Source: a virus. Taken from it: a stretch of 45,652 nucleotides of DNA. This document shows, one piece after another, positions 1 through 45,651 of the stretch (positions within the stretch are counted from its first letter, which is position 1; each line of letters starts with the position of its first letter). The position numbers were made by a program, and so were the translations under genes. The notes below the pieces were generated by a model. The model had not been told where the DNA came from and did no database searches. It saw only the letters and a list, made by a program, of their open reading frames with translations. The DNA lies in IMG/VR virus record IMGVR_UViG_3300027865_000013, positions 1 through 45,652 of that record; one strand, written 5' to 3'.

Positions 1-11
1 AGTTTGCACCC
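1..11. repeat. Left copy of 11-bp terminal direct repeat
   Basis: The first 11 bases (AGTTTGCACCC) recur at 45641-45651. The next base differs (C here, A at the right edge). The repeat lies upstream of terS in the circularised view, where lambda-type phages carry cos. It could be the cohesive-end or assembly-overlap trace of a circular or concatemeric genome. The short length means chance is not excluded. Confidence 0.5.
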
Positions 12-338
12 CGCCTGTCTGTAAAGGCCGAAAGAACCTATACACCCCTACTATCACATACTTAGCATCGTAATATAAGTTATTAATCTGATTAATCTTT
101 ATTGATTTGTAATAAGCTAATGATACCACCCCTTTAGACAATGAGTGATTGCATGGTATGATATGTGTTAAGTAATTACTATTAATGTGTACTATATATA
201 CAATGATATACTGTGTTAATAGGTTGATATGTGGACATAATAGATGATTAATTACAGCAGGATAGGCAATTGCTTTTAAAGTGGGTGTAATAGATAGCAT
301 ACTACAGCACCATATAGGCACCCCAAACAGATGATGTG
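1..338. other. AT-rich non-coding stretch next to the genome end
   Basis: No open frame with a ribosome binding site is visible on either strand. The stretch is very AT-rich and carries one TGGACA motif (232-237) of the kind clustered at 1071-1410. Together with 45519-45652 it separates the gpZ-like gene from terS by about 470 bp in the circular map. That is a likely position for the packaging site (cos), judged from lambda-like phages with a GpA-family terminase. Confidence 0.4.
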
Positions 339-1004
339 TCATAGCTTCACCTTCTTCAGTTCTTCCTGTAGTGCTACAGTGAACACTGCCTGATGCTTAT
401 CCACTCCAGCTTTAATGACTGGTTCACTGACACTGTCCTTCTCCCACAGCTTACCCAAGCCCGACACACTATGCCTGATGATAGGAAGGTGGGTCTTGCG
501 CTTCCACCCCTTCCTTCTGCCTGATACTTCCTTGGGGACTGCCTTAGAAGACCTTCTGAACACATGAAGTCTTGTCTTCTGAACACCCTTCCCAGCCTTG
601 ACCCTTGCTATGAATGCACCCTTCATATTTTTCGATCTTCCCTTGGAAAGCTTGACCTTCAGCTTTCTTCTTTCAGAAGGAAGTTTATTTTTCTGCTTAT
701 CCGGTCTTTTTGAACCCTGAACAAAGTGAATCATGCTGATAGGGCGTTTATCCACCTTCAGGACACCTTCAAGCTTTTCCAGCTTGCTTCCTTTGACCCT
801 TGATTTTTCTGTGTATTTTTTCTTGAGAGTAGAAAGCTTCATTGCTCTGACTTTTTGAACTTCCTTCAGAAGTGTTCTGTGCATTTCAGTCAAGCCTTTG
901 TTCATTGACTTCCTTGCTGCCCGAACAACTGCTTTTTCATTCTGCTTTGTCAACAGAACTGGGACTTTCTTCAAATCGGATTCAATTGACATAGTCATGG
1001 ACAT
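339..1004 (-). CDS. Minor tail protein Z-like (gpZ family)
   Basis: Encodes a very basic protein of 221 residues. The start at 1004 is chosen because AAAGGGGAAG lies a few bases upstream; a start at 1034 would lack this. The overall pattern matches the phage minor tail protein Z family: a helical N-terminus with an Ala-Arg-rich segment, a central AFIARVKAGK-type strand, then LPIIRHSVSGLG and a C-terminal helix ending in LQEELKKV. In lambda, gpZ helps complete the tail end that joins the head. The gene is unusual in lying far from the other tail genes, across the presumed packaging site from terS, whereas its usual place is between the FII-like and U-like neck genes (here 38164-38487 and 37595-38167). 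The family assignment comes from pattern recognition. Confidence 0.6.
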   Translation of the reverse strand: MSMTMSIESDLKKVPVLLTKQNEKAVVRAARKSMNKGLTEMHRTLLKEVQKVRAMKLSTLKKKYTEKSRVKGSKLEKLEGVLKVDKRPISMIHFVQGSKRPDKQKNKLPSERRKLKVKLSKGRSKNMKGAFIARVKAGKGVQKTRLHVFRRSSKAVPKEVSGRRKGWKRKTHLPIIRHSVSGLGKLWEKDSVSEPVIKAGVDKHQAVFTVALQEELKKVKL

Positions 1005-1070
1005 GCAACTTCCCCTTTCTTTGTGCAATAACATGGAGAATCAAGCAATACAAGGGGTTTCATAAATAAA

Positions 1071-1410
1071 GGACATGGGGACAGGCTTTTTTGAGTTAAA
1101 TTATGTACTTAACCCCCTGGACACGGAATGGACACCAAATGACGCAGCATGTTGTCCACGATATCCCCAGTGAAAACACTCGTTTGCGCCATTCTGGACA
1201 TGGAATCACGAAAAAAGGTGAAAAGTTTTCTGTGGGATTTTCCTTTATTGCCCCTCTCTATATATATTATTAATATACTATATTTTAAGTTATAGAGTTA
1301 TTTTATGATTCTGTGTCCAGATGCTTCCAACCTGGTGGTTTTATTGGGGATTCACCGGACACGAAATTGAAAATTCCATGTCCATTCCTTGTCCATTCTG
1401 TGTCCATTGG
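1071..1410. repeat. Cluster of TGTCCA/TGGACA iterons, partly phased at 11 bp
   Basis: Motif copies start at 1118, 1129 and 1195 (TGGACA orientation) and at 1153, 1314, 1379, 1390 and 1401 (TGTCCA orientation). Near matches occur at 1071 (GGACAT) and 1358 (GGACAC). The pair 1118/1129 and the trio 1379/1390/1401 are spaced exactly 11 bp, one helical turn. The longer unit is about TGTCCATTC plus two variable bases, and the two phased groups face in opposite orientation around the AT-rich core. Such phasing usually reflects a protein binding one face of the helix. Confidence 0.65.
1255..1310. other. AT-rich core inside the motif cluster
   Basis: A run made almost only of A and T (TATATATTATTAATATAC and following) sits between the two motif groups. 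It could be a DNA-unwinding element if the region is an origin. This role is inferred from position and composition only. Confidence 0.35.
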
Positions 1411-1491
1411 TGAAAATGAGGTATATGACCATTATTTATGAATCAACAATGTAACGGCAATGTAACAATATGAGTGTATAGCATTTTATGC

Positions 1492-1520
1492 TTGACAAAT
1501 GAGATATACCATGTTATAGT
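1492..1520 (+). promoter_or_regulatory. Sigma70-type promoter of the early/accessory operon
   Basis: A consensus -35 box TTGACA (1492-1497) is followed by a 17-bp spacer and TATAGT (1515-1520), five of six matches to the -10 consensus. It lies 36 bp upstream of the first gene of the plus-strand operon, which starts at 1557 behind AAAGGGGAA. Confidence 0.8.
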
Positions 1521-1556
1521 TAAAGGACAATAAGCAATGAACAAAGGGGAAATCAA

Positions 1557-2048
1557 ATGAAAGCAATAAGAATGAATTTGAAACAGGTCATGAAAGACAT
1601 TGGTGAAGACTACATGAAATTAATAAGGGAAGGTCAGGCACCCTCAGAAATAGCAAATTCAAGCATGTATTACAAATGTGATGTGTGTGGTGGATGGTTC
1701 TATACTGATGCAATTGAAGTCACCAGTGGTCAATGTGGGTCTGATGTCTGCATTAATTGTGTAAATGATGTTAAGAAGCAGAAAAATCAATCTGTAATGG
1801 ATGCAATTGAATTTTTGAACCCTAAAGTAAAAGTAAGCAAATGGATTCTAACAGGTGTTGAGAAGTCCAGAAGGGAAAAGTGGGCATTGATCTTTAATAC
1901 AGAGGCTGAAGCAATGCACAGAAGGCAGGAGATAGCAAAGGAAGAAGTCACTGAAGATGGTGTTGACTATGAAAATGCAGACAGATTTGCTGATAGGCTT
2001 GATGAAGTTGAAGGTGAAATGGACATCATAGAAACTGTAAATTATTAG
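1557..2048 (+). CDS. Hypothetical protein with zinc-binding Cys motifs
   Basis: First gene of the accessory operon, 163 residues, start supported by AAAGGGGAA about 7 bp upstream. Residues 41-44 form CDVC, and a second Cys cluster follows at about 60-69 (CGSDVCINC), a layout typical of a small treble-clef or zinc-ribbon fold. The C-terminal third is acidic (FADRLDEVEGEMD). No specific family was recognised. As the first product from a strong early promoter it may act on host functions or phage regulation; this is inference from position. Confidence 0.8.
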   Translation: MKAIRMNLKQVMKDIGEDYMKLIREGQAPSEIANSSMYYKCDVCGGWFYTDAIEVTSGQCGSDVCINCVNDVKKQKNQSVMDAIEFLNPKVKVSKWILTGVEKSRREKWALIFNTEAEAMHRRQEIAKEEVTEDGVDYENADRFADRLDEVEGEMDIIETVNY

Positions 2049-2065
2049 ACATATTGGGGGTTCTG

Positions 2066-2266
2066 ATGCTTGAAGAAATGATGGAAAAAAAATTAAATCT
2101 TTGGTATGCAAACTCTACTGCAATCAGGGATATATTTGAACTTGATTTTGAAAGTGCAAATTCACTGCACCCTGTCCTTGAAACTAAGGAACTTTATGAA
2201 AAAGTTCATCAATTCATTATCCTGAACCCCTCAGTGCTTGAAAAATTCGAATGTGCTTATAATTAG
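2066..2266 (+). CDS. Small hypothetical protein
   Basis: A 66-residue, mostly helical, acidic protein with no recognised motif. The ATG at 2066 follows GGGGG at 2056-2060; an upstream TTG at 2054 would start before this site and is disfavoured. It lies 17 bp after the preceding gene, in the same operon. Confidence 0.65.
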   Translation: MLEEMMEKKLNLWYANSTAIRDIFELDFESANSLHPVLETKELYEKVHQFIILNPSVLEKFECAYN

Positions 2267-2290
2267 ACCTAGACAGAGCGAATTCTATAA

Positions 2291-2339
2291 TGTATTCTAA
2301 TCTAATTTGCTTTTTTTTATGGGAAAGGTGGTTTTTATG
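2291..2339 (+). repeat. Gene leader repeat, copy 1
   Basis: This stretch (TGTAT, then CTAATTTGC, an oligo-T run, AAAGGTGG and ATG) is repeated almost unchanged at 2745-2790 in front of the next gene. It covers the 5' leader, the ribosome binding site and the start codon. A perfect -10-like TATAAT lies at 2286-2291, but no good -35 box precedes it. Confidence 0.6.
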
Positions 2340-2744
2340 CAGGTTTACATCACCATGCCTAATGGGTTTACCGCAACCATCACAACTGCTGATGCTCTGA
2401 AGGTTTGTTTTGATCAGCAGACAAGAAAAAGAATCCCTGCAAGCGCAGCAGCTGAAATTTATCATTATGCCTGTAGTGTGAAAAGGAACAGGGAAAGGAA
2501 ACCCCTGAAAAGATATCCTGTTCCCCACTTTGAATTCAGGTCTGTCCCAACACCTACTGCAATAGGTGGAAAACCTTTGTTACAAATATTCAATAATCAA
2601 GCATATAGATATTTTGAAATAGTTGAAATCAAAAAGACCAGAATCAGAATCGAAATGGACTTTCCTTCAGGAATTATTGGGACTTGGATTCCTGCAATCA
2701 ATTATAATGGTGAAGATTATTTTCTTTCACCCTATATCAAATAG
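2337..2744 (+). CDS. Hypothetical protein
   Basis: A 135-residue basic protein with no recognised family. The start at 2337 follows AAAGGTGG; an upstream ATG at about 2319 lies before this site. The N-terminal half is rich in Arg/Lys and the C-terminal half is predicted beta-rich. It shares its leader sequence with the next gene. Confidence 0.7.
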   Translation: MQVYITMPNGFTATITTADALKVCFDQQTRKRIPASAAAEIYHYACSVKRNRERKPLKRYPVPHFEFRSVPTPTAIGGKPLLQIFNNQAYRYFEIVEIKKTRIRIEMDFPSGIIGTWIPAINYNGEDYFLSPYIK

Positions 2745-2790
2745 TGTATCCCAATCTAATTTGCTTTTTTATAGAAAGGGTGGTTTTATG
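2745..2790 (+). repeat. Gene leader repeat, copy 2
   Basis: Second copy of the leader at 2291-2339: the shared part includes AATCTAATTTGCTTTTTT, then an A/G-rich ribosome binding site and GGTTTTATG. The copies sit directly before two neighbouring genes, so this looks like duplicated translational control or the scar of a gene insertion. Confidence 0.6.
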
Positions 2791-3396
2791 CCTAAATTAA
2801 ACACCGCACCAGACAACATTTTCACATGCTTCACTTGTAACAGGGAGTATGAAGGAATTCCCCACAACTGGACAAACAATTGGAAACCTGAACCCATGTG
2901 CAGCAACTGCATCTATGATGAATATTCGACTAAATACCCACCCCACCCTTATTCAATAAAGAACATCAAAACCTTCACTGGAATGGAAGGAACTGGGTTC
3001 AATGCTACTCTTTACCGTGAAAAGAAAAGGATTGCATTCCTGATTGATGATGCTTCAGGTGGTGATGTGCAGATTCAGTGGGTGGACACAGTCAAAAATA
3101 ATTCAGAAGCTGTAGCACTAGAACAATTTATTGCAGGACTTCCAATGAGAATGTTTAATGAAACACCTTTGAACATTGACCCGCAATGGTTTGTTTCTGA
3201 TCTTGTTAATGACTCTATAAATACAAAATGGCTGAAAAAACACTGCAAGACCAAAACAATATATAGGCTGAAAGGTGACAGTGCTGGTGAATTCAGAACA
3301 ATCAAGGGAGTATTCACCCCTGATGTCAAAATATACATTCTAAGGAAGTATAATGAACAACTTGAAGAAATTGTGAATGAAAGGTGGATGTCATGA
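2788..3396 (+). CDS. Hypothetical protein with N-terminal zinc-finger Cys pairs
   Basis: A 202-residue protein started at 2788 behind AAAGGGTGG. It carries CFTC at about residues 14-17 and CSNC at about 37-40, a likely zinc-ribbon, followed by an alpha/beta region without a recognised family. Its stop overlaps the next start (ATGA), which suggests translational coupling. Confidence 0.75.
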   Translation: MPKLNTAPDNIFTCFTCNREYEGIPHNWTNNWKPEPMCSNCIYDEYSTKYPPHPYSIKNIKTFTGMEGTGFNATLYREKKRIAFLIDDASGGDVQIQWVDTVKNNSEAVALEQFIAGLPMRMFNETPLNIDPQWFVSDLVNDSINTKWLKKHCKTKTIYRLKGDSAGEFRTIKGVFTPDVKIYILRKYNEQLEEIVNERWMS

Positions 3397-3689
3397 AATA
3401 TCTAGTGTCATACGTTGATGTAAACTCTGGAAAGTCAACTGAACATATTTTTCCCACACAGCTATCAGCAAAGAAAAAGATTGTAGACATGAAAAAAATT
3501 AGCGGGTCATTTTACAATTTCAACATCAGGAAACTGTATGAAGGGGAACTGATGAACCCCGCAGTTGAAATGCACTGTCCTTGCTGTTGGCATGGTTTCT
3601 ACATCCAAGCAACAGACCTGAAGAAGATCAATGACTGTGGGCATTGTGGTGCCCTGGTCAAGTGGAATGAAAAGGATAATAAAATCTAA
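3393..3689 (+). CDS. Small protein with C-terminal zinc ribbon
   Basis: A 98-residue protein whose ATG overlaps the preceding TGA; AAGGTGG at 3381-3387 serves as ribosome binding site. The C-terminal third has CPCC and CGHC about 21 residues apart, the typical spacing of a zinc ribbon. The N-terminal part is basic and probably alpha/beta. Function unknown. Confidence 0.75.
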   Translation: MKYLVSYVDVNSGKSTEHIFPTQLSAKKKIVDMKKISGSFYNFNIRKLYEGELMNPAVEMHCPCCWHGFYIQATDLKKINDCGHCGALVKWNEKDNKI

Positions 3690-3698
3690 AATTCCCCG

Positions 3699-3727
3699 TT
3701 GACAGAATGTTTTTTCTAGTGTATATC
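3699..3727 (+). promoter_or_regulatory. Promoter upstream of the methyltransferase gene
   Basis: TTGACA (3699-3704), a 17-bp spacer and TATATC (3722-3727) lie in a 76-bp gap and precede the methyltransferase start by about 40 bp. The -35 box is consensus and the -10 box matches at four of six positions. This would allow the methyltransferase to be expressed apart from the genes upstream. Confidence 0.6.
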
Positions 3728-3765
3728 ATTTTTTGATAATCAAACCTGTGGAAAAGGTGGTTTCA

Positions 3766-4797
3766 ATGAATGTTCTAAGTCTGTTTGACGGGATTTCCTG
3801 TGGGATGCTTGCACTGAATCAAGTAGGGTTCCATTTTGACTACTATGCTGATAATTTTTACTATGCTTCTGAAATTGATAAATTTGCAGAACAGGTCAGC
3901 AGGAAAAATTTCAAACAAATCATCAGACTAGGCAATGTCAAGAATCACAAAGACTGGGATTTGAATAATATTGATTTGTTAATGGGTGGTTCACCATGTC
4001 AAGGCTTTTCCATTGCTGGGAAGGGACTGAACTTTGAAGACCCAAGGTCACAGCTGTTCTTTGACTTTCTCCATTGTTTGGAAGACAGGAAGCCCACCTG
4101 GTTCCTGTTCGAAAATGTCATGATGAAGAAAACTATTGAAGCAGAAATCACAAAATTGCTGGGTGTTGAACCTATTACAATAAATTCATCACTACTGACA
4201 GCGCAGCACCGAAAAAGACTGTACTGGACAAACATTCCAAATATTACACAGCCCGAAGATAAAAATATTTTGTTAGGTGACATCATCCTGCAAGATGGAC
4301 TTCCTGTGACATACACCGAAAGAAGAACTGAAGAAGCAAAGCGAATCAGAAAGGAATATAAAAAACGTACAGGAAAGGATTTCTGTCCTAGACGAGCAAA
4401 GGAAATGATTCCCAGAACCGATGAAAAAACCGGATGCATCACAGCATCACTTTCAAAGGAACACCTGCTTCTTTCAGACAAAGCAATGAAATACATGGAT
4501 AGATGCACAAAGGATGGAAGGAACCACTGGGACTTTCAGCATCATTCCGATGTGCTTGATGGAAAATCAAGGGCAATAGTTGCAAATTTCTTCAAAGGTG
4601 TCCCCTATAGTGTCCTGAAGGACTGGGACTGTATCAGATATTTCCACCCTGTTGAATGTGAAAGACTTCAGGGAATCCCTGACAATTACACTGAAGGCAT
4701 CAGCAAAACACAAAGATATAAAGCGATAGGAAACGGTTGGACTGTCCCTGTCATTGCACACATACTTTCACACATTCCTTCAAAGGGGGGAAAATGA
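3766..4797 (+). CDS. DNA (cytosine-5-)-methyltransferase
   Basis: A 343-residue enzyme that should transfer a methyl group from S-adenosylmethionine to C5 of cytosine in DNA. Visible motifs are motif I SLFDGISCG (residues 5-13), motif IV GGSPCQGFS with catalytic Cys78, motif VI ENV (116-118), motif VIII QHRKRLYW (147-154), motif IX with HPVECERLQG, and motif X KAIGNGW near the C-terminus. The variable target-recognition part lies between motifs VIII and IX. No restriction endonuclease is adjacent, so it is an orphan enzyme, probably protecting phage DNA from host restriction or marking it. Its start follows AAAAGGTGG. It has its own promoter and ends in an ATGA overlap with the next gene. The target sequence cannot be read from the protein. 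Confidence 0.95.
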   Translation: MNVLSLFDGISCGMLALNQVGFHFDYYADNFYYASEIDKFAEQVSRKNFKQIIRLGNVKNHKDWDLNNIDLLMGGSPCQGFSIAGKGLNFEDPRSQLFFDFLHCLEDRKPTWFLFENVMMKKTIEAEITKLLGVEPITINSSLLTAQHRKRLYWTNIPNITQPEDKNILLGDIILQDGLPVTYTERRTEEAKRIRKEYKKRTGKDFCPRRAKEMIPRTDEKTGCITASLSKEHLLLSDKAMKYMDRCTKDGRNHWDFQHHSDVLDGKSRAIVANFFKGVPYSVLKDWDCIRYFHPVECERLQGIPDNYTEGISKTQRYKAIGNGWTVPVIAHILSHIPSKGGK

Positions 4798-4919
4798 AGA
4801 AAGAAATTGTGAAATGTTTCCACTGTAAACACAAATATGATGTTCAGTATCACTATTGGAGATGTCCAACTTGTGGGACTTGTTACGGAGACAGTGAACC
4901 ACCGAAAGGACTGTACTAA
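4794..4919 (+). CDS. 41-residue zinc-ribbon peptide
   Basis: A tiny protein starting inside the stop of the methyltransferase gene (ATGA) behind AAAGGGGGG. It has CFHC and CPTC pairs about 14 residues apart, a minimal zinc ribbon. Coupling to the methyltransferase suggests co-expression; a joint function is unproven. Confidence 0.65.
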   Translation: MKKEIVKCFHCKHKYDVQYHYWRCPTCGTCYGDSEPPKGLY

Positions 4920-5101
4920 TGAAAAGTTATACATTTACATACACCCTATCAGACGGCTTCCACACATGCGGTCCCTTTGAAATTAAAAAAGGGACTATTA
5001 CTAAAAGTCATGGCTCTATGTTTTGGATTAGGGGTTCTTTGTGTGAATTACAGGCAATTCATAGAAATAACAGTGGGGAACAGTGGGAATTCACCTATTG
5101 A
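4919..5101 (+). CDS. Small hypothetical protein
   Basis: A 60-residue, beta-rich protein whose ATG overlaps the preceding stop (TAATG), with GAAAGGA upstream. It has two Cys residues but no recognised motif. Confidence 0.6.
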   Translation: MKSYTFTYTLSDGFHTCGPFEIKKGTITKSHGSMFWIRGSLCELQAIHRNNSGEQWEFTY

Positions 5102-5112
5102 AAGGAATCCTG

Positions 5113-5313
5113 ATGAACATCAAACAGGAAGCTAAAAAGTGGAAAGATGGAAAAACAATTGTGAAGAAGCAGTTCAACACTCGACTGTCCCCAGCTACAA
5201 TTCAAGCTTTGAAGGAACTACAGCACCACTTGGGACTTAACCAAGCAGACACAGTTGAATTCTGTATTCAGAACAGTCTGCAACATGTCAAATCTGAAAA
5301 AGGGGAATCATGA
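5113..5313 (+). CDS. Ribbon-helix-helix (CopG/Arc-like) protein
   Basis: A 66-residue protein started at 5113 behind AAAGGA. Residues about 20-55 read as a beta strand (KQFNTRLS) followed by two helices (PATIQALKELQHHLG and QADTVEFCIQNSL), the classic ribbon-helix-helix layout of small dimeric DNA-binding proteins. It may autoregulate the operon or control another phage promoter. It overlaps the next gene by ATGA. No toxin partner is obvious nearby. Confidence 0.6.
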   Translation: MNIKQEAKKWKDGKTIVKKQFNTRLSPATIQALKELQHHLGLNQADTVEFCIQNSLQHVKSEKGES

Positions 5314-5786
5314 AGAAACCAACCCACCCAATCAATCTACTGGACGCTGAAAAAATACTTGAAGCAGGTGCAGACTATGTGCAGACAATTCATGGTGAAA
5401 ATCCACCACCAAAGATCAGGCATGACGTTGACCTGATGCATTTTCAAACTTTGATTTATAGGGAAAAAATCAATCAACTGATTGAAAAGAGCAACACTCA
5501 GACTGATGTGATTGTTAAACTGTTGGAAGCTTTACAACATAAAAGCATCACTTCTAATAATGAGAAAATCGCAATTGATGACATCATCGGAGACTTAACA
5601 GGCAGGGTGTCCAATTATTTTGAACCTGAAAAGGCAGACCCAAATCAAGGGGTTTTTTCTTTCGGCGCAGTCCCTGACAATAAACCCAATGAATTTGGAT
5701 TGTACCAATGCCCTTATGACATAAAAAGGCACTGCTCTGAATTTGGGAAATGTGGTGTATGTGAGACAAAGAAAGGGAAAGACTGA
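5310..5786 (+). CDS. Hypothetical protein with C-terminal Cys cluster
   Basis: A 158-residue protein, start coupled to the preceding gene by an ATGA overlap. The first 100 residues look helical and the end carries four Cys (CPYDIKRHC, then CGVC), a possible metal site. Not recognised. Confidence 0.7.
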   Translation: MKKPTHPINLLDAEKILEAGADYVQTIHGENPPPKIRHDVDLMHFQTLIYREKINQLIEKSNTQTDVIVKLLEALQHKSITSNNEKIAIDDIIGDLTGRVSNYFEPEKADPNQGVFSFGAVPDNKPNEFGLYQCPYDIKRHCSEFGKCGVCETKKGKD

Positions 5787-5790
5787 AATC

Positions 5791-6015
5791 ATGGGATATG
5801 TAAAAAGATTCTGTAAAAACAAACATTCTGACTGCAAAGCACTGCACCGCCTTGGAAAAAATAGATGGAAGTGTGATCTGGGATATATTATCACGCTGGG
5901 TGCTAAGTATGGAATTAGGACAGCCCCTATTTATTACCCAAAACCAGTTGTTCCTTGTCCAAAGCCCCTGACCTACAAAGATTATCTTTCTAAAAGTAAA
6001 GAGACACAGACCTGA
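5791..6015 (+). CDS. Small Cys-containing hypothetical protein
   Basis: Last gene of the operon, 74 residues. The ATG at 5791 follows GGGAAAG at 5775-5781; an earlier start at 5743 would overlap the preceding gene. Four Cys are present, three of them in the first 35 residues, in a basic context, followed by a Pro-rich tail. No family recognised. Confidence 0.55.
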   Translation: MGYVKRFCKNKHSDCKALHRLGKNRWKCDLGYIITLGAKYGIRTAPIYYPKPVVPCPKPLTYKDYLSKSKETQT

Positions 6016-6053
6016 ACCCCATCCCCAGCTTTACAGACCCAATCTCAAGGCAT

Positions 6054-6088
6054 AAAAAAAGGCTGAAGACTCATAATCTTCAACCTTT
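6054..6088. terminator. Bidirectional terminator between convergent operons
   Basis: The arms GGCTGAAGA (6061-6069) and TCTTCAACC (6077-6085) pair with one mismatch around a 7-base loop. On the minus strand the hairpin is followed by seven T residues, a strong rho-independent terminator for the gene at 6117. On the plus strand the T run is short, so termination of the accessory operon is weaker. Confidence 0.8.
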
Positions 6089-6116
6089 ATATATTCCAAA
6101 CCTAGTAATAATCCAA

Positions 6117-6701
6117 TTAAGGATTTGTTACTGTGAAAGGTACTGTGATCAGAACATGCCCTTTATGTCTGTAAACAACTTCCTGGTAAGGGTCAGCAGC
6201 TTCATTCCCACACTGTGCTTTGTATTGTTTAGCGCTGAAACTTCCACCACCACCTGAAGAAGACATCAAGATTTTTCCAGTGGCATAATTTGTCGGACTG
6301 ACTTTGTAAATTATCAGACTTTTATCAGCTTCAAAATAAAGCCCTTCTTCACCTTCAGTTGCAACAGGTCTTAAAACAATGGAAGCAACCCCTGTAAAAC
6401 TTTGACCCGCGCCTGGGACTTGCTGAACAACATCAACAGAAAAACCAGCACTGTCTATCAGTTCAAGCTTCCAGTTTCCATTTCCGCTTCTGTTGGTGTA
6501 TGTGGTGTCAGTTGTAGCACATGCCATGTCAAAAAGAGCATCAGACTGTGAAGACCTGATTTCTTTTGTCTCAAAAAGACCGAAATCTTCCTGAACCATC
6601 TGTGAACCCAAACTTGTGACTGTAGGTGCAGCACTGACTGTCACCGAAAACAGAACCATTGTCAAAAAAACCGAAATCATAAGAAAACTGAAACGCTTCA
6701 T
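6117..6701 (-). CDS. Secreted/periplasmic protein of unknown function
   Basis: A 194-residue protein with a clear Sec signal peptide: a basic start (MKRF), a hydrophobic core to about residue 21 and a VSAAP-type cleavage site near 24. The mature part is beta-rich with two Cys (in MACATTD and AQCGNE) that could form a disulfide, and has a Gly-rich GGGGS segment. AGGGGG lies a few bases before the ATG and a strong terminator follows the stop. Phage genes of this kind at operon ends may alter the host envelope or block superinfection, but nothing in the sequence identifies its role. Confidence 0.8.
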   Translation of the reverse strand: MKRFSFLMISVFLTMVLFSVTVSAAPTVTSLGSQMVQEDFGLFETKEIRSSQSDALFDMACATTDTTYTNRSGNGNWKLELIDSAGFSVDVVQQVPGAGQSFTGVASIVLRPVATEGEEGLYFEADKSLIIYKVSPTNYATGKILMSSSGGGGSFSAKQYKAQCGNEAADPYQEVVYRHKGHVLITVPFTVTNP

Positions 6702-6746
6702 AGTGTACCCCCTGTTATTTGATAATTAGAATTAACTATTCAAGAA

Positions 6747-6977
6747 CTAATCCATTTTCATGGAAGTGTCAAGACCATATTCAACCCTGTCACTGAATTC
6801 TGATTGCTTTCCTGCATTCCAGTTCCTGGTCGGTCTGTGGTATCCCACAACCCTTGAATATACGTCACATTTTGCCCCACATTTATTTCTTTTTGTATTC
6901 CCCCCTTGTCCCCCAAGGGTGATTGATTCTGTTCTTTTTTCTTCTTTTCCAACCATGTTTTCTTGAGACATACTCAT
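6747..6977 (-). CDS. Free-standing NrdD C-terminal glycyl-radical-domain-like protein
   Basis: A 76-residue protein (start at 6977, with an alternative GTG at 6983 or ATG at about 6956). Its second half strongly resembles the C-terminal end of class III anaerobic ribonucleotide reductase (NrdD). Residues 38-47 read DVYSRVVGYH, which fits the glycyl-radical signature with Gly45 as the radical position, and RNWNAGKQSEF followed by a DR pair fits the conserved NrdD tail. Two Cys (33 and 37) precede it, whereas full NrdD has four zinc-binding Cys. The catalytic barrel is absent. By analogy with YfiD and T4 Y06I, which replace a damaged glycyl-radical segment of pyruvate formate-lyase, it could rescue host NrdD. 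The 5' part overlaps the 61-codon gene upstream in another frame, and no strong ribosome binding site is visible, so the exact start is uncertain. Confidence 0.6.
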   Translation of the reverse strand: MSMSQENMVGKEEKRTESITLGGQGGNTKRNKCGAKCDVYSRVVGYHRPTRNWNAGKQSEFSDRVEYGLDTSMKMD

Positions 6978-7068
6978 TCTCACTTTCTGGTAGTACCTTG
7001 AATTTCATTCCACACCCACACTTGCAGGTTCTTTCAACCAAATTCCCCACAGCTTTTTCCAAATCCAT
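6883..7068 (-). CDS. Small Cys-rich zinc-finger-like protein
   Basis: A 61-residue basic protein with an excellent ribosome binding site (GGTGGGAAGGAAATC before the ATG). Residues about 15-19 form CKCGC, followed by a conserved-looking ESENEYVSRKHGW segment, resembling small zinc-binding domains that recognise nucleic acids, though a second Cys pair is missing. Its 3' end overlaps the glycyl-radical-like gene in a different frame. Confidence 0.6.
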   Translation of the reverse strand: MDLEKAVGNLVERTCKCGCGMKFKVLPESENEYVSRKHGWKRRKKNRINHPWGTRGEYKKK

Positions 7069-7116
7069 GATTTCCTTCCCACCTTAACCCATGAAGGTGT
7101 TTATTTCAAATCGGAA

Positions 7117-8343
7117 TTAGGAATAAATCTTGATTTTGGGCTTTGTGTCATGCCTTGTCTTCAAATAGATTTTTTCTCTCAGTAGTATTCCATACTTTCT
7201 GTTTATTGTGAAAATCCATTGATTTGGATTATTGGAACCCATCCACATTTTTGAACCTGAATTTCCCCCAACCCAGTTCCCATTGATGATTTTTTCCCCA
7301 TTGTCACTTGGAAGAATGGCTTCTGTGTGGTGATGACCCATAACAAAGTATGTGAAATACTGGTTCAGCATTTCCATATATTTTGCCTTTGCTCTGTCAA
7401 CCCCGTAGTAAGGAAGACCCATCCACCTTCCAACATCATCACCATGCAGGAAGCAGAAAATCCACCCGCAAGAATCCCAAAGCTGAAACCATGCATCAGA
7501 CCACTGAAATTTCATGTTCCCACCGTTTTCAACTTTGAAGTTGTGGAGCTTCTCTTCAAGGAACAAATAAAACAAATAATCAAAGTTGCATGAAGTGGGT
7601 GCATCACCCTTTCTTCCAATTCTTCCATGATTCCCCATCACACCTGGGACATTAATTGAAAGCTGGGGAAAGGTTTCACTGATTTCACCTAGTACCTTTG
7701 CAAACTCCATTGCACCCTGAACCAGTTGATGAATCACATGAAGGTCAAGATGATATGCCTGACCCTTGAAAATGTCATGCCCTTGCACGATATCACCGAT
7801 GAAAGGAATGACAATCTTCTGCACCTGCTGGGTCAGCAGCTGTGTGTCAATGAACCTTATGACTTCATTTTTCCAGATTTGCAATTCAATCTTAAAGATT
7901 TCAAAATTATATTCATTCAGCCCACCAACGTCTTTCCTTGTGACCTTTTCACCTATCTGACAATCGGAAACAAGAGCCATAATTTCAATGGCTTTATCAC
8001 TGGGTTTCTTTATTCGATGTTTCCTGGGTGGTTTCAATTTTGGCAGTCTATAAATTTCAGCTTTGATCTGCTCTGCAACCAGTTCTGAAATTGCCTGTCC
8101 TTTTCTGAAAAGGGACAGTTCTTTTCTTTCGGCATTTTTTATCAAGTCATCTTTGGTTCTTTGAATTTCAGCTTTTCTGAATGACTCTGGGTCAAATTTC
8201 CCCAGCTCTATTTCTTCAAGATTTTGAAGATTCCCAAATTTATCTTTCCACTCTGTGACACATTTGGTTTTGCAGAAGAATTTTCCCCTTCCTTCATAGT
8301 ATTCACCGCAATTCAGACAATTATTCCTGTAAGTCTTCCCCAT
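7117..8343 (-). CDS. Metallophosphoesterase with N-terminal zinc finger
   Basis: A 408-residue calcineurin-type phosphoesterase. The metal-binding motifs appear in order: SDCQ (126-129, with Asp127), GDIVQGHD (183-190), GNHGR (237-241), HGDD (300-303) and GHHHTE (336-341). The N-terminus carries four Cys (9, 12, 24, 28) in a small zinc finger, followed by a basic helical linker, which suggests nucleic-acid binding. Related phage enzymes may act as nucleases or phosphatases; the true substrate is not readable. AGGGGGG precedes the ATG. A strong terminator (8453-8486) isolates the gene from upstream transcription, so it likely has its own promoter in the 110 bp before it, though none is clear. 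Confidence 0.85.
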   Translation of the reverse strand: MGKTYRNNCLNCGEYYEGRGKFFCKTKCVTEWKDKFGNLQNLEEIELGKFDPESFRKAEIQRTKDDLIKNAERKELSLFRKGQAISELVAEQIKAEIYRLPKLKPPRKHRIKKPSDKAIEIMALVSDCQIGEKVTRKDVGGLNEYNFEIFKIELQIWKNEVIRFIDTQLLTQQVQKIVIPFIGDIVQGHDIFKGQAYHLDLHVIHQLVQGAMEFAKVLGEISETFPQLSINVPGVMGNHGRIGRKGDAPTSCNFDYLFYLFLEEKLHNFKVENGGNMKFQWSDAWFQLWDSCGWIFCFLHGDDVGRWMGLPYYGVDRAKAKYMEMLNQYFTYFVMGHHHTEAILPSDNGEKIINGNWVGGNSGSKMWMGSNNPNQWIFTINRKYGILLREKIYLKTRHDTKPKIKIYS

Positions 8344-8452
8344 AAAACCCCCCTATTGGACTGTTTCTGAAGCAAGAAATGCTGTAAATCTATTGAATTG
8401 TTTAGATATCCCATCAAGGAAAGGCTAAATGTCCGTTATTAGTAAAGTCAAG

Positions 8453-8486
8453 AAAAAAGCCCTGACAACTAGTGTCAAGGCTTTTC
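8453..8486. terminator. Rho-independent terminator
   Basis: A stem formed by AAAAGCC and TGACA on one side and TGTCA and GGCTTTT on the other has one mismatch and a 5-base loop. On the minus strand it ends in six T residues. It should stop transcripts of the small-gene operon ending at 8516 before they reach the phosphoesterase gene. Confidence 0.8.
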
Positions 8487-8515
8487 TGGGTTGCTTTGAA
8501 TCCCTGTCAGAAGAA

Positions 8516-8731
8516 TCAAGCTGATGACTTTAACAGGGAATCATTCAGTCTGTCAAGGTCTGAAAGAAAGTTTTTGTTCCCAATCTTGAAAATGTTGTTC
8601 CTAGTGTACTTGATACAGGTCAGGATGTGTTCCAGTTCCTGTGCTGATAATTCAACCAGCACTTTGTCTGATCGGTTTTCTGTTGACTGTGAATCCTCTT
8701 GAACGTCTGTGTTTTCTTCTTTGTTTGACAC
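8516..8731 (-). CDS. Small hypothetical protein
   Basis: A 71-residue protein. The GTG at 8731 is chosen because AGGGGG, overlapping the end of the preceding gene, lies about 7 bases upstream. An acidic, polar N-terminus is followed by two predicted helices. Last gene before a terminator. Not recognised. Confidence 0.6.
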   Translation of the reverse strand: MSNKEENTDVQEDSQSTENRSDKVLVELSAQELEHILTCIKYTRNNIFKIGNKNFLSDLDRLNDSLLKSSA

Positions 8732-8735
8732 TGTG

Positions 8736-8843
8736 TTACCCCCTGAATTCTTTGGTTTGATACCACAGATAACAGCAGACAATGACAAGTATTGTCCATG
8801 AAATCAGTGCATCTTTCCAGTGTGTTTGAAAAAATTCCTTCAT
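8736..8843 (-). CDS. 35-residue single-span membrane peptide
   Basis: Starts at 8843 behind AGGGGGATAT. One hydrophobic span (about residues 12-27, WTILVIVCCYLWY) follows a short polar N-terminus. One of several very small membrane genes in this stretch. Function unknown. Confidence 0.55.
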   Translation of the reverse strand: MKEFFQTHWKDALISWTILVIVCCYLWYQTKEFRG

Positions 8844-8854
8844 GTTATATCCCC

Positions 8855-9004
8855 CTATTTGACAAAGAATGCTGCAATCCCAGCACCCAAACCCATTCCC
8901 AACAGACACATTGTCACAGCTACACAAAACCATACTGTTTGGAATGTATGAAGTGGAATGACAACTTCTTTCCCCTGCGGTCTTTTTATTATTTTAGCTT
9001 TCAT
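8855..9004 (-). CDS. 49-residue single-span membrane protein
   Basis: The start at 9004 follows AAGGGGAAAAAG. A basic N-terminus and one C-terminal membrane span (about 24-47) rich in Gly suggest a small N-in membrane protein. It overlaps the preceding gene by 11 bases. Not recognised. Confidence 0.55.
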   Translation of the reverse strand: MKAKIIKRPQGKEVVIPLHTFQTVWFCVAVTMCLLGMGLGAGIAAFFVK

Positions 9005-9209
9005 TTTCTTTTTCCCCTTTTCCTTCCCCAAATGCACCTTTCAGAACATCATCAAGAAAGTTTGAATCAGCATCACCTAGTGTGACCCTAGTAATTAGAT
9101 TGATTATCGCCATTCGATCAGTTAGCTGATGGATGTCATTTGGGATAATCGCTGTTAAAGTTCTAATTTGTTCCAGTGGGCTTAAATGTGAAAATTCAAC
9201 ATAGGTCAT
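8994..9209 (-). CDS. Small hypothetical protein
   Basis: A 71-residue mainly helical protein with GGGGGAATGAC before its ATG. No membrane span and no recognised motif. The acidic tail overlaps the next gene. Confidence 0.6.
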   Translation of the reverse strand: MTYVEFSHLSPLEQIRTLTAIIPNDIHQLTDRMAIINLITRVTLGDADSNFLDDVLKGAFGEGKGEKENES

Positions 9210-9210
9210 G

Positions 9211-9411
9211 TCATTCCCCCATCAAACGTCCAATAAGTTTGTTAATGCCGTAGTAAGTATGGGCACCAGCAAACAAACCCCACCCGATAGCAAAGGCACC
9301 CCACCACAAATTCACAAACTTTGTGAACCTGGTCCCTAGTCCTGAAAAGGTTCCCTTGAAAAAATATTTGATGTATTGCCAACTGAATCTATTGATTTTT
9401 TTTCTCAGCAT
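9211..9411 (-). CDS. Small membrane-associated protein
   Basis: A 66-residue protein with a basic N-terminus and one hydrophobic, aromatic-rich segment (about 34-53). GAAGGGGAA precedes the ATG. Not recognised. Confidence 0.6.
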   Translation of the reverse strand: MLRKKINRFSWQYIKYFFKGTFSGLGTRFTKFVNLWWGAFAIGWGLFAGAHTYYGINKLIGRLMGE

Positions 9412-9413
9412 TT

Positions 9414-9599
9414 TTATTCCCCTTCATCATTATCTAGGATGTCCACAATTCCAGCTGCTTCTTCAAAGTAGTCATAATAATCATGCGTGGTCCCATCTTT
9501 CATTTTGATTGAAAAAAACCAGTTTGATGTGGTTTCTTTGAAAATGTACTCAGATATTTCACTGACCCTGATTCTTTTTTCTTTAATTCTAATGAACAT
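9414..9599 (-). CDS. Small hypothetical protein
   Basis: A 61-residue protein with alternating strands at the N-terminus and an acidic helical end (YFEEAAGIVDILDND). GGGGTGG lies just upstream of the ATG. No family recognised. Confidence 0.6.
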   Translation of the reverse strand: MFIRIKEKRIRVSEISEYIFKETTSNWFFSIKMKDGTTHDYYDYFEEAAGIVDILDNDEGE

Positions 9600-9600
9600 A

Positions 9601-9735
9601 CTACCACCCCATTATTTTTGAAGCTGTCCAGATTCCTGCATATAATCCAAATCCACCTGAAAAGCCATGAAGCAACCACTTCCCCTGAACAATGACATTT
9701 GCCAAAATTCGTCCAACAATTTCATTTTTATCCAC
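9601..9735 (-). CDS. 44-residue small membrane-like protein
   Basis: A short frame opened by GTG at 9735, with AAGAGGTC a few bases upstream, ending at TAG next to the following start. The product is hydrophobic and Gly-rich in its second half (LLHGFSGGFGLYAGIW), compatible with one membrane span. It fills the otherwise empty gap between two genes of the operon. Confidence 0.45.
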   Translation of the reverse strand: MDKNEIVGRILANVIVQGKWLLHGFSGGFGLYAGIWTASKIMGW

Positions 9736-9806
9736 AGTTTGACCTCTTTTCCCTTGAATATTTGTGTTTTTACATGTGTCTATTCAATCATTATGCCAAA
9801 ACATCA

Positions 9807-10184
9807 CTATTTCAGAACCCGTTTAATAATCCGCTGAACATCATCCAACTTTGCTTGAACAATCACGTCTTCACCCAGCGTGATGTCTTCCATGACCATA
9901 TGAAGTTCTAGATCATTGCTCTTAATTATGTTTTCTAGCAACCAATGCAGTGTCCCCTTTTCCTTTTTCCTGACTTCCTCCATTGCTTTAACAAAGCCCA
10001 TTATAAAAACAAATCGAAGTGTGTCATTGTCAGTTCTTTTTAGAATTTCATGGTTCTTTGGTGAATTGAATTTCAAGTTCATCATTGTTTTGTCAAACAA
10101 TTCACTTGCTGCGTCAACCTCCTTCTGATTCTCCGGTGAAGATTGATCTTTGATTCCAATTGGTTCTGTTTGTTTTTCACTCAT
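9807..10184 (-). CDS. Hypothetical acidic helical protein
   Basis: A 125-residue protein, start overlapping the preceding stop (ATGA), with AGAGGAATTAAG upstream. The first 30 residues are polar and probably disordered; the rest is helical with a LDDVQRIIKRVL ending. Not recognised. Confidence 0.7.
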   Translation of the reverse strand: MSEKQTEPIGIKDQSSPENQKEVDAASELFDKTMMNLKFNSPKNHEILKRTDNDTLRFVFIMGFVKAMEEVRKKEKGTLHWLLENIIKSNDLELHMVMEDITLGEDVIVQAKLDDVQRIIKRVLK

Positions 10185-10999
10185 TTTCTTAATTCCTCTA
10201 GTAAAGGGGAAACAAGTTTGTTCAACCTGATCTTTTTCCCCTGTGGTTCAGTTCCTTCAATACCCTGTGCAATGGGAGATGTCTGAAAATACCAGTCCCA
10301 TGCATATTGAAGGTCAATTTTTTTCAAAATCCATTTCATCAATGGGTTCCAAGGTGTTTTAAGTCTTTCACCTGCCTGATGGACAAGCAAAGTCAGGTTC
10401 AGCTTTGAACTGGTTTCATTCTTGTCCTGGTAGGTTGCAGCAGCACATGCAATCACTAGAAAAAAATCTGTGCAGAGTAGGACAGGATAGAACACCCACC
10501 AGCCCAAAGACCTGATAAACATTCCCCAGTGCTGGGGATGCAGAAAATCTGTGACATTAGGGCAGAACCCCAGCCTTTTGATGTGGTATCCAAGTGCATA
10601 TCCAAGCATTTTCATGACAATGTGCCCATGATACCTGCTGTCCATAGCTAGAATCAAAGTCACTAGGTTGTCCCTTGATACAACTTCAGGAACTTCTTCC
10701 TTCTGTTGTTCATTAGGTTCAACACCAAACCAGCCCTTGACAGTACACCAGATTTTAGTCCAGCCCCAGTGGAACCTTGGATATTTTGCATCAGGGTGCC
10801 TAATGAATAAACATTCCCTGCTGAACACTGTTTCAAGTGCCTTCCTGAACAGTTCCCTGTCCTTGGATGTGCATTCCCCTGTGTGCTGGGTGATGTACTG
10901 AACACACCCAGTCCTTTGTGTTGCATCTCCTGGGTCACCCGCCCAAAAAAGACCATATTTGTCAGGTGGGCAAACCTCCATGAATTCATTTCTGGTCAT
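10181..10999 (-). CDS. Hypothetical Trp- and Cys-rich protein with hydrophobic segment
   Basis: A 272-residue protein of unknown family. It is rich in Trp and Cys and has one hydrophobic segment at about residues 166-187 (WWVFYPVLLCTDFFLVIACA) that may be a membrane helix. Start at 10999 overlaps the stop of the small gene upstream (TAATG). It is the largest protein of this small-gene operon and may anchor others at the membrane; this is a guess from context. Confidence 0.7.
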   Translation of the reverse strand: MTRNEFMEVCPPDKYGLFWAGDPGDATQRTGCVQYITQHTGECTSKDRELFRKALETVFSRECLFIRHPDAKYPRFHWGWTKIWCTVKGWFGVEPNEQQKEEVPEVVSRDNLVTLILAMDSRYHGHIVMKMLGYALGYHIKRLGFCPNVTDFLHPQHWGMFIRSLGWWVFYPVLLCTDFFLVIACAAATYQDKNETSSKLNLTLLVHQAGERLKTPWNPLMKWILKKIDLQYAWDWYFQTSPIAQGIEGTEPQGKKIRLNKLVSPLLEELRK

Positions 11000-11169
11000 T
11001 AGTACATCCCCCCATTTTCCCTACGGATAACCCTGACACAATTCTGACAGGATGGTTCTTCTTCAGCCTTCACAAGAATTCCTTTATTGTATTTTGTGAC
11101 TCTGACACCGCACACTGTGAAACCCCTGAACCCCCACTTCCCCTGTGTATGCGTTTTTTCATTCTTCAT
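10999..11169 (-). CDS. 56-residue basic Cys protein
   Basis: A short frame read from 11169 to TAA at 10999-11001, with AAAGGA upstream. It contains three Cys, two of them in CQNC near the C-terminus, followed by VRVIRR. It closes the gap between the HNH gene and the 272-residue gene and overlaps the latter's start. Function unknown. Confidence 0.5.
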   Translation of the reverse strand: MKNEKTHTQGKWGFRGFTVCGVRVTKYNKGILVKAEEEPSCQNCVRVIRRENGGMY

Positions 11170-11181
11170 GGTCTGTCCTTT

Positions 11182-11538
11182 CTAATCATCTGAAGGAATC
11201 CACACTTCTTCAGCAGGGTCAGGACGTTTTCTGAACCTACAATGTTCTGTGTTTTCCATCTGTGTTATCACCCTTAAATTTGATTTTCTACAGTCTAGGC
11301 TTTCACCGTTGATGTGGTCAACCACTTTGTTCCTAGGTGGTTTCATTATGAACCTGTGCATGTAAATTGATTTACGTTTTTTTCGTGTAGACCCTTTTAC
11401 CCATGCCCTTGCATAACATTTCCCACCCTTTTCTTCAGGCCTGGTCCATGTAGCATACCAGTTCAATGTGGACAATTTTTCAAAGTCTTCAGCATCCACA
11501 AGTGCAACTTTCCCTTTTGTCAGTTGGATTTCCTTCAT
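11182..11538 (-). CDS. HNH endonuclease (HNH_3 type)
   Basis: A 118-residue nuclease. The N-terminal part resembles the small domain common in phage homing nucleases (LTKGKVALVDAEDFEKL, then NWYAT). The HNH core follows: MHRFI at about 60, VDHINGE at about 73-79 and SNLRVIT at about 85-92. Such genes are typically free-standing homing endonucleases that spread between phages by cutting unoccupied sites. It sits directly downstream of the primase-helicase gene, 8 bp away. Confidence 0.85.
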   Translation of the reverse strand: MKEIQLTKGKVALVDAEDFEKLSTLNWYATWTRPEEKGGKCYARAWVKGSTRKKRKSIYMHRFIMKPPRNKVVDHINGESLDCRKSNLRVITQMENTEHCRFRKRPDPAEEVWIPSDD

Positions 11539-11546
11539 GATTCCCC

Positions 11547-13886
11547 TTAAAAGTTTTGAAGATTGTCAACCCTGACACCACACATCACAGCAGTCTTTTT
11601 TCCCTCAACAGGCTTCCTTTTATACCTGTCATGGATTTTGGGAATCAGCCTTTTTATTCTCTTCCCAAATGTGATCATGGTTTCAGGCTTTTCACCCCTT
11701 CTTTCAGTGAAAAATTTATAGTTTGAATATAGTGCCTGAACTGGTGTGAAAGCATCTTCATTGATTTTTTCATCAACATGCACCATGTCCAGAAACCAAG
11801 CCTGAACTGAATTTGTTGCAAGCTGGTATTTGCTTATTTCTTTGTCGATGCTTGAACTTTTTGTGAATCCCTTCTGTTCTTTCAGTCTCTTATACCCATC
11901 AAGAATAAGATTGAACACACCTGGAAGTTCTTCCAGTAGTTTTGCCTTCAGGAATGGGTCACACTTCTTCCCCTCAAATTCCTGAGTAAAGGGAACAATC
12001 AGAAGCCTTCTGAAAAATCCCTTTGTAGTGTCCCTTGACTTAGGAAGTTCATTGCAAGCAAACATCAGCTTGCACCTGTTCTGAATTGTGTAGGGTTGCT
12101 TATATAACTGTTTCACAAGTGTTTCACCACCTGTCACAAGGTTCTTGAATAATGATGATTCAGTCATTGAATAGTGCGGTGTTTCTTCTGCAAGGTTGAA
12201 AAGCTTTCCATCAAGCTGATACCTGTTGGTTTCTGTCTTCAGTTCCCCCAAAGTCAATGAAGAATAGTTGTCTCTTCCTGCTGCTGCCCTTAGTACGTTC
12301 ATAAAGGTGCTTTTTCCATTTGCACCTTCACCTGTCATTATCATGGCTTTGTCAGTCCAGCATTCATCATTGCTGAAAAGATATCCCCCAAATTCCATCA
12401 AAACTTTTATAACATTTGCATCATCCCCAGTTACTTCCTGAAGAAATTTGATGAACTTAGGACACTGCGCTTCTGCATCATAGTCATATGGTAAAACGTA
12501 TCTGAAACCGTATTTGATTGAATGTGGTTGAAGTTCCATTGTGTCTATGTCAAGCACACCATTTTGGAAATTCATTTTTCTTTCTACAGATTCCTGAAAC
12601 CATTTGGTGCTTCTCAGGTTTGTTCTACACACAAGGCTTCTGAACTCCATGCACATTGCATTGTTTGCTGTGGGTTTGAAGTGTGCCTGACTGAAGCCTT
12701 CCAGTTCTACATCACTGAAAGATTCCCAGTGCTTTCCATTCCACACAAAACAAATCCTGCTTTCACCGTATGTCACATATGGATGCAATGATTCAAAGTA
12801 TCTTCTCAAATCCTCATAACAAGGTTTCCCAACTCTTTTCCCTTTGTCTGTGTATTTGACAGAATGAAACCCTGTGTTCCTGGTTGCAATATAGTCTTCA
12901 CCCCTGATCAGTATAGGTGATCTTACTTTTCCTTTTTCTGGACACTCTTCACACCCAGCCCACATTGCTTCAATGTTCTTACATGTTCTGGGTCCGGATG
13001 CATCAAGGGCATGATTCAGTTTTTCATCGGTTTCTTCTATTGTGTAGGATGGATGTTCACAGGAATAAGTATGTGCAAGCTTCCTTCCTTCCTTCATTCG
13101 TCCCAGTATTGAAAGAAGGGCATACCACATTGATTCATGCACTTCATCCTGGTCCCTCTTACAGTGCTTCAAGAACAGGCAACTTTCAAGAACAGATTTG
13201 TCATCACAATCAGGATATTTTTCAAACTGTTCAGGTGTTATATGCTCACCTTTCTTGATAATTGGAATCCTGCTGCATTCTGTCAGACTGAAATTTGATG
13301 GTTCAATATTTCCCTGCATCAATTCTGCTAGTCTTTCAGGCTTTCCTGGTTTGATATTCAATGTATTTGGAAGCCTTAAAAGCCTTGCAGGTGACCACAC
13401 AGCAGGGTCTGCAACCCCTGTCAGGTCTGCTTTTTTCAGTGCTGCTGTAATTCTACTACACACCGCTTTATAATGTGGGCGGTATTCCTTAAAGTGGGTC
13501 AACTTTGTAAAGGGCTTTTTCAGCCCGACAATTATTTGAAGACCATTCCCTGAAAACACAACACCTGTCTTCTTCTCTTCAAGTTTCAAAACCGAAAGGA
13601 CTATTGGAACGTATGCTTTTCTATTCTCAACATCAATCCCATCAATATCAAATGGGATGATCTGCTGTGACACAAATTTCCTGCCTGTTTCTTCCAGACA
13701 GATTGCTGCTGTGTAGTAAAGATTAAATTTTTCTTTTTCTGGGACTTTCTTCAATATAGCGTCGATGTTCTTAAAAAGGCTGGGGACAGAATCCGACCTC
13801 CAGCCTTTTTCAAAAAATGTTTCAAAAGACACATCCTGCTGTTTCTTCTCAGAATAGGTCTTTCTTAACCCCAATACTTGAATCAT
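11547..13886 (-). CDS. Primase-helicase (AEP-like primase plus D5/SF3 helicase)
   Basis: A 779-residue replication protein; the start at 13886 follows AAAAGGGGAATCC. The N-terminal third has archaeo-eukaryotic primase features: DID (80-82), SGNGLQ (112-117) and the SPARLLRLPNT segment near 165. A Cys pair region (about 302-315) may bind zinc. The C-terminal half is a D5-type superfamily 3 helicase with Walker A GEGANGKST (519-527), Walker B LFNLAEE (562-568) and motif C ending in Asn612 (FACNELP). It should unwind the fork and make primers for the polymerase encoded at 16141. The gene is transcribed divergently from the polymerase operon; both share the control region at 13887-14177. Confidence 0.92.
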   Translation of the reverse strand: MIQVLGLRKTYSEKKQQDVSFETFFEKGWRSDSVPSLFKNIDAILKKVPEKEKFNLYYTAAICLEETGRKFVSQQIIPFDIDGIDVENRKAYVPIVLSVLKLEEKKTGVVFSGNGLQIIVGLKKPFTKLTHFKEYRPHYKAVCSRITAALKKADLTGVADPAVWSPARLLRLPNTLNIKPGKPERLAELMQGNIEPSNFSLTECSRIPIIKKGEHITPEQFEKYPDCDDKSVLESCLFLKHCKRDQDEVHESMWYALLSILGRMKEGRKLAHTYSCEHPSYTIEETDEKLNHALDASGPRTCKNIEAMWAGCEECPEKGKVRSPILIRGEDYIATRNTGFHSVKYTDKGKRVGKPCYEDLRRYFESLHPYVTYGESRICFVWNGKHWESFSDVELEGFSQAHFKPTANNAMCMEFRSLVCRTNLRSTKWFQESVERKMNFQNGVLDIDTMELQPHSIKYGFRYVLPYDYDAEAQCPKFIKFLQEVTGDDANVIKVLMEFGGYLFSNDECWTDKAMIMTGEGANGKSTFMNVLRAAAGRDNYSSLTLGELKTETNRYQLDGKLFNLAEETPHYSMTESSLFKNLVTGGETLVKQLYKQPYTIQNRCKLMFACNELPKSRDTTKGFFRRLLIVPFTQEFEGKKCDPFLKAKLLEELPGVFNLILDGYKRLKEQKGFTKSSSIDKEISKYQLATNSVQAWFLDMVHVDEKINEDAFTPVQALYSNYKFFTERRGEKPETMITFGKRIKRLIPKIHDRYKRKPVEGKKTAVMCGVRVDNLQNF

Positions 13887-14048
13887 GGATTCCCCTTTTA
13901 ACATGTCTTTATTCTGTTTGCCTTTTCCAAAGGAAGAATTCACCAATACCTTGAAAATTTATTTTTTTCAAGCTTGATTTTAATATTTTTCCAGTATAGT
14001 GTTCTTGAAAGCTTTCAGGCTTCCTGCCTGACTGCCTTTTCCACAAGT

Positions 14049-15947: not shown

Positions 15948-16178
15948 ATGTTTATTGAATCAAAGCTGATGGATGGAAAAATAATTTTTATCAACCTGAA
16001 TAAAGTTCAGGAAATTGTGGAAACATCAAATGAAGCACTGACTTCTGATATCCACTACTATGGACACAAAAATTCTTTCACCGTCGATGAATCCATTGAA
16101 AGTATTGCAAAATCAGTGGGCATCACACAGAGGAAATTCCATGCTTGTCACAAAGGAAAACTTCAAGACCACAGTTGA
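15948..16178 (+). CDS. Small hypothetical protein
   Basis: A 76-residue protein started at 15948 after AAGGTGG. The N-terminus has a beta pattern (SKLMDGKIIFINLNKVQEI) similar to small DUF proteins that display strands before a helix. Its end overlaps the polymerase start by 38 bases, indicating translational coupling. Confidence 0.55.
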   Translation: MFIESKLMDGKIIFINLNKVQEIVETSNEALTSDIHYYGHKNSFTVDESIESIAKSVGITQRKFHACHKGKLQDHS

Positions 16179-37268: not shown

Positions 37269-37306
37269 TTCAAACCCCCATGAAAATATCATTCAAATTG
37301 TTAAAA

Positions 37307-45640: not shown

Positions 45641-45651
45641 AGTTTGCACCC
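45641..45651. repeat. Right copy of 11-bp terminal direct repeat
   Basis: Identical to the first 11 bases of the window. The two copies would merge in a circular molecule, placing the junction about 125 bp upstream of terS, a position typical of cos in lambda-type phages. Confidence 0.5.

Follow-up and report, generated by a model that had tools for sequence, protein, structure and literature searches.

The window analyzed here is the whole of the 45,652-nucleotide viral record IMGVR_UViG_3300027865_000013 (positions 1 to 45,652). Near its left end, two divergent gene blocks are separated by a gap of ~0.5 kb (positions 1035 to 1556). Late genes run leftward from 1034, where the gene next to the gap is a tail-completion gene (339 to 1034; PHROG 27), and an early gene block runs rightward from 1557 (first gene, 1557 to 2048). 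Within the gap lie a cluster of short repeats, an A/T-rich core, and a sigma-70-type promoter (Table 1). Elsewhere, the record encodes a D5/DUF5906-type primase-helicase, a family A DNA polymerase (16060 to 17964), a lambda-type (GpA) terminase, and relatives of Pam3 gp33 and gp34. Local profile, Pfam, and PHROGs scans detected no integrase anywhere in the record, a tRNA scan and an Rfam scan found nothing, and none of the INPHARED phage records was similar at the DNA level to window positions 1 to 12000. Positions 1 to 11 and 45641 to 45651 both read AGTTTGCACCC, a sequence located 125 bp upstream of the small terminase gene. These shared ends may be the cohesive end of a cos phage of the lambda type, in which case the record is nearly complete.

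Table 1 Features of the repeat region and of the candidate initiator gene in the window
Feature	Position	Strand	Remarks
Two weak GGACA copies (1071, 1079)	1071..1083	+	Left edge; membership doubtful
Iteron 1, CTGGACACGGAAT	1117..1129	+	
Iteron 2, ATGGACACCAAAT	1128..1140	+	Exactly 11 bp past iteron 1
Degenerate core copy TGTCCA	1153..1158	-	Without extended motif; membership doubtful
Iteron 3, CTGGACATGGAAT	1194..1206	+	
A/T-rich core, candidate unwinding element	1255..1310		87.5% A/T
Iteron 4, CTGGACACAGAAT	1308..1320	-	
Iteron 5, CCGGACACGAAAT	1355..1367	+	Orientation exception within right group
Iteron 6, ATGGACATGGAAT	1373..1385	-	
Iteron 7, ATGGACAAGGAAT	1384..1396	-	11 bp from iteron 6
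Iteron 8, ATGGACACAGAAT	1395..1407	-	11 bp from iteron 7
Sigma-70-type promoter, TTGACA-17-TATAGT, 11/12	1492..1520	+	Adjoins array; predicted to drive + strand early genes from 1557
D5/DUF5906-type (SF3) primase-helicase, candidate initiator	11547..13946	-	
C-terminal winged-helix domain (~residues 733 to 793), candidate iteron reader	11568..11750	-	Pox_D5 match, model, fold match, alignment

Repeats around the A/T-rich core

Self-alignment of the region revealed eight copies of a 13-base repeat, [AC]TGGACA[CTA][GA]GAAT, between positions 1117 and 1407. An earlier note on this DNA had described about ten TGTCCA/TGGACA-type motifs in 340 bp. That count is borne out and the TGGACA core is present, but the true repeat is the longer, 13-base unit. 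Exact TGGACA/TGTCCA words number eight in 1118 to 1406 (1118+, 1129+, 1153-, 1195+, 1314-, 1379-, 1390-, and 1401-), and the shorter core GGACA adds copies at 1071+, 1079+, and 1357+, giving 11 within 1071 to 1405. The eight TGGACA words per 340 bp compare with a maximum of five in 200 dinucleotide-preserving shuffles. The exact 11-bp steps previously noticed in the pair at 1118/1129 and the trio at 1379/1390/1401 were confirmed, and the three same-strand 11-bp pairs that they represent compare with none in 195 of the shuffles and one in the other 5.

A degenerate form of the 13-mer, [AC][TC]GGACA[ACT][AG][AG]AAT, had seven matches across all 45,652 bases of the record, each of them in 1117 to 1407; the eighth iteron copy, at 1128, ranks just below them. 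Our strict array detector called a single cluster in the window; in 30 shuffles of the window it called none. The extended 13-base repeat is missing from the TGGACA copies at 232, 998, and 45582, and record-wide the word TGGACA occurs 54 times, versus 45.6 expected; we therefore regard these copies as background, and the "network" that the copies at 232 and 45582 had been thought to form falls away.

The mirror orientation of the two groups holds approximately, with exceptions in both (left group, +,+,(-),+; right group, -,(+),-,-,-). The core between them had been called nearly pure A/T, which overstates its composition (87.5%), but it is the most A/T-rich stretch of the record at 40, 56, and 60 bp. 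The array and its A/T core are nonrandom and unique within the record. GC skew changes sign near 1000 to 1500, but the change coincides with the switch in gene direction and is thus not independent evidence for an origin.

A D5-type primase-helicase as candidate initiator

The phage had been thought to have no recognized initiator; its primase-helicase, with a predicted RFX-like winged helix at the C terminus, alters that picture. The protein matches Pfam families D5_N (2e-11) and DUF5906 (9e-20), with a Pox_D5 match at the C terminus, and the SaPI5 primase-helicase (7ola) was its sole strong sequence match in the PDB. Its predicted structure matched 7ola and other AEP-type primase-helicases. 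The final ~60 residues are predicted to form a winged helix (pLDDT of about 90), for which the best fold matches were RFX DNA-binding domains, one of them solved on its cognate DNA. Vaccinia D5 has been reported to show the same resemblance to RFX in weaker form (PMC9611036). The presumed recognition helix is among the variable parts of the primase-helicase alignment, as would be expected if each protein reads its own word. In the window, the array lies ~10 kb downstream of the 3' end of the primase-helicase gene; the position directly behind the gene, where most relatives place the iteron array, is occupied by an HNH endonuclease gene (11182 to 11538).

Arrays in relatives of the primase-helicase

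Single-protein scans of viral contigs with the tail-completion protein, the product of the 1557 gene, or the primase returned no relatives. The relatives described here came from an alignment-based scan with the primase-helicase, which yielded 66 loci, the closest being 46% identical. Arrays were sought de novo, as any 6-base word concentrated in 360 bp, with none specified beforehand. Noncoding arrays with words in both orientations around an A/T-rich core were found in the records of the closest relatives, G001 (TGTGAC; primase identity, 46%), G006 (TGGCAG; 41%), G002 (GGTGTC; 40%), and G004 (GGTTAC; 35%). A noncoding GTAACA array likewise surrounds an A/T-rich core in G003 (39%), where the strand order, ++-+----, is the same as in the window. 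The array is displaced from the primase gene in G002 and G003, too. In L359, a GGACAC array begins 19 bp past the primase stop, and its word is close to the TGGACAC of the window. No array was seen in L360 (about 33% identity across the full alignment) or L361 (about 24%). Arrays of AGGTCC (G002), GCCGCC (G005), and AGACAC (position 37018 of the window) were not used, being one-sided or resembling repetitive coding sequence. Positions 36993 to 37292 of the window hold an ORF with an (SDTD)n run encoded by a DNA repeat of AGACAC-type words.

Detector thresholds were tuned on these same data. The strict detector found an array in 22 of the 66 primase loci and in 1 of 80 terminase controls, loci whose total length was similar. 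A looser detector put the start of an array 0 to 940 bp beyond the primase stop codon in 27 of the 40 nearest loci (at 100 bp or less in most of them), versus an array anywhere in 2 of the 80 controls. Three further loci of the 40 end at or just after the primase stop. Since most of the 40 loci are from closely related streptococcal phages, the fair comparison is that with the nine other loci, 6 of which had an array (versus 2/80 controls; p = 4e-6).

We rejected the idea that TGGACA itself is conserved with the primase, as the 11-bp TGGACA pair was present in none of 10 relatives' records. The earlier note had named a lack of conserved spacing in relatives as an argument against an origin. 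Neither the iteron word nor the 11-bp step is kept among the primase relatives, and the origins thus show no direct homology in sequence; the conserved features are the architecture of the array and its link to the primase.

TGGACA arrays in other contexts

A scan of viral contigs for three TGGACA words at 11 bp returned at least 120 stretches. Among the triplet loci listed, 88 of 119 have a gene of a replication-initiator group, the array almost always lying inside that gene; a representative of the group matched the Pfam families Phage_rep_org_N and DnaB_2. In 64 of the 119, a DnaB-type helicase gene was nearby. Most phage contexts of the triplets among these matches are replication contexts. 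Together with the equivalent arrays that accompany the same primase-helicase family, the 88 loci support the view of the region as a candidate iteron origin. Proteins of more than one kind use TGGACA arrays at 11 bp, so the word alone is not diagnostic. Very dense GTGGACACC/GGTGTCCAC arrays surround an A/T stretch in a GC-rich phage (L163, 7313 to 7960 and beyond), where they overlap the upstream end of a long ORF with no Pfam match. In genome loci, many recurring TGGACA triplets, often as facing pairs, came from single Bacteroidales MAGs (RUG13410 and Reindeer_2_mag_28; loci L234, L236, L237, L240, L245, L256-L258, L260, L267, L268, L270, L282, L287, L288, L298, and L310); these are a host repeat family unrelated to the array in the window.

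The origin could be read by another phage protein, either the ribbon-helix-helix (RHH) protein encoded at 5083 to 5313 or the product of the gene at 1557 to 2048, with the primase-helicase recruited second. RHH proteins are able to bind helically phased short repeats, and an unrelated 45.7-kb phage (L135) carries an array almost identical to that of the window (+ copies, A/T core, - copies) with an RHH-like ORF right beside it and an OmpR-type winged-helix ORF on the other side. In many lineages, however, arrays come after the D5 primase gene, and the related protein SaPI Rep reads iterons of its own (PMC7581432). We consider this alternative unlikely, and neither the RHH protein nor a network of outlying copies is needed for the origin reading.

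The array might instead be an operator for a regulator of the divergent late and early gene blocks, between which it lies together with a strong promoter. TGGACA arrays also adjoin genes for ArpU-like regulators (L091, 7989 to 8027; L202, about 4.6 kb) and a ParB-like gene upstream of a terminase gene (L010, 3290 to 3348), contexts in which yet other proteins may read the word. However, the array stops 85 bp before the -35 box of the promoter, and an operator would explain neither the A/T-rich core nor the association with the primase gene that is seen in relatives; this explanation is very improbable.

In six viral loci (L093, L098, L099, L102, L108, and L113), tandem TGGACACAGAATGGACA pairs at 11 bp neighbor a tyrosine integrase gene, and this 17-bp pair pattern made an attP, with the repeats as arm-type integrase sites flanking a crossover core, our first lead. 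In L102 and L093 the pairs flank a tRNA-like sequence, and TGGACA triplets adjoin integrases in L116 and L253. Matches of the 17-bp pattern within long ORFs were mostly chance or coding. Each of two loci (L102, 962 to 1190; L093, 6321 to 6558) has the form of an apparent attP, with an integrase gene followed by TGGACACAGAATGGACAC pairs on either side of the tRNA-like core. We dropped the attP lead, now hardly credible for the window, because the window encodes no integrase and the triplet search gave replication contexts and the look-alike in L135; moreover, no tRNA was found in the record, and the same architecture accompanies the primase in relatives.

A probable replication origin read by the primase-helicase

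The computations establish the iterons and A/T core, assign the primase-helicase to its family, predict its winged helix, and show that arrays recur with its relatives; on these grounds, we think it likely that positions 1117 to 1407 are a replication origin read by the D5-type primase-helicase. Judged from comparison with related phages, the 340-base region is probably a replication origin of an already known kind. We infer that this primase-helicase binds these iterons, melts the DNA, and starts replication in both directions. Several copies of the protein would bind the 13-bp iterons through the C-terminal winged helix, and the two iteron groups would place it on both flanks of the A/T-rich core. 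After melting of the core, the helicase would load itself, and a replisome would assemble in which the phage's own family A DNA polymerase may serve.

We hypothesize, with even confidence for and against, that phages with D5-type primase-helicases share one origin architecture in which a lineage-specific iteron word changes with the variable C-terminal winged helix. If this is true, there is a natural recognition code by which origin word and protein could each be predicted from the other, and an origin could be located even after moving away from its gene. For an otherwise divergent phage, an origin and a named candidate initiator are now proposed in testable form. The approach also provides a simple route to origins in other phages with D5-type primase-helicases when the repeat is not known beforehand, and the variety of iteron words found with related primases could be used to work out how these winged helices choose DNA.

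Comparison with known systems

Iteron plasmids resemble the window in their direct repeats and A/T-rich region, but the record yielded no protein of a plasmid Rep family and there is no DnaA box in or near the array. Systems of the lambda O/P22 gp18 type likewise combine iterons with an initiator, and in most phage loci listed the TGGACA 11-bp triplets are inside replisome-organizer genes. They differ in having the iterons within the initiator gene and, usually, a DnaB-type helicase partner, neither of which the window has.

Phage P4 has a second site, crr, for which the window showed no counterpart. Among the fold matches listed, the P4 origin-binding domain was absent. The P4 alpha protein uses a winged helix to bind origin repeats and then carries out unwinding and priming (PMC4234260). 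Like the window's protein, it joins (predicted, in the window) winged-helix origin recognition, an SF3 helicase, and a primase in a single polypeptide that goes with origin repeats. However, the P4 primase is of the Toprim (bacterial) type, whereas the window's protein has no Toprim Pfam match and its fold matches are AEP type.

The C-terminal domain of SaPI Rep recognizes iterons directly downstream of its gene, and the C terminus of Cch2 (SCCmec) alone binds the putative origin (PMC7581432). The window differs from SaPI in its iteron word, in the distance of ~10 kb between gene and array where SaPI has its origin directly downstream, and in being a whole phage rather than a satellite island. 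The likeness lies in the protein, which, as in SaPI Rep (7ola) and Cch2, combines an AEP primase and a D5_N/SF3 helicase with a C-terminal double-stranded-DNA-binding domain (predicted in the window), and in the possession of multiple short iterons with an A/T-rich region in their midst. Among the 40 nearest relatives of the window's primase, 27 also carry the array directly behind the gene, as SaPI does.
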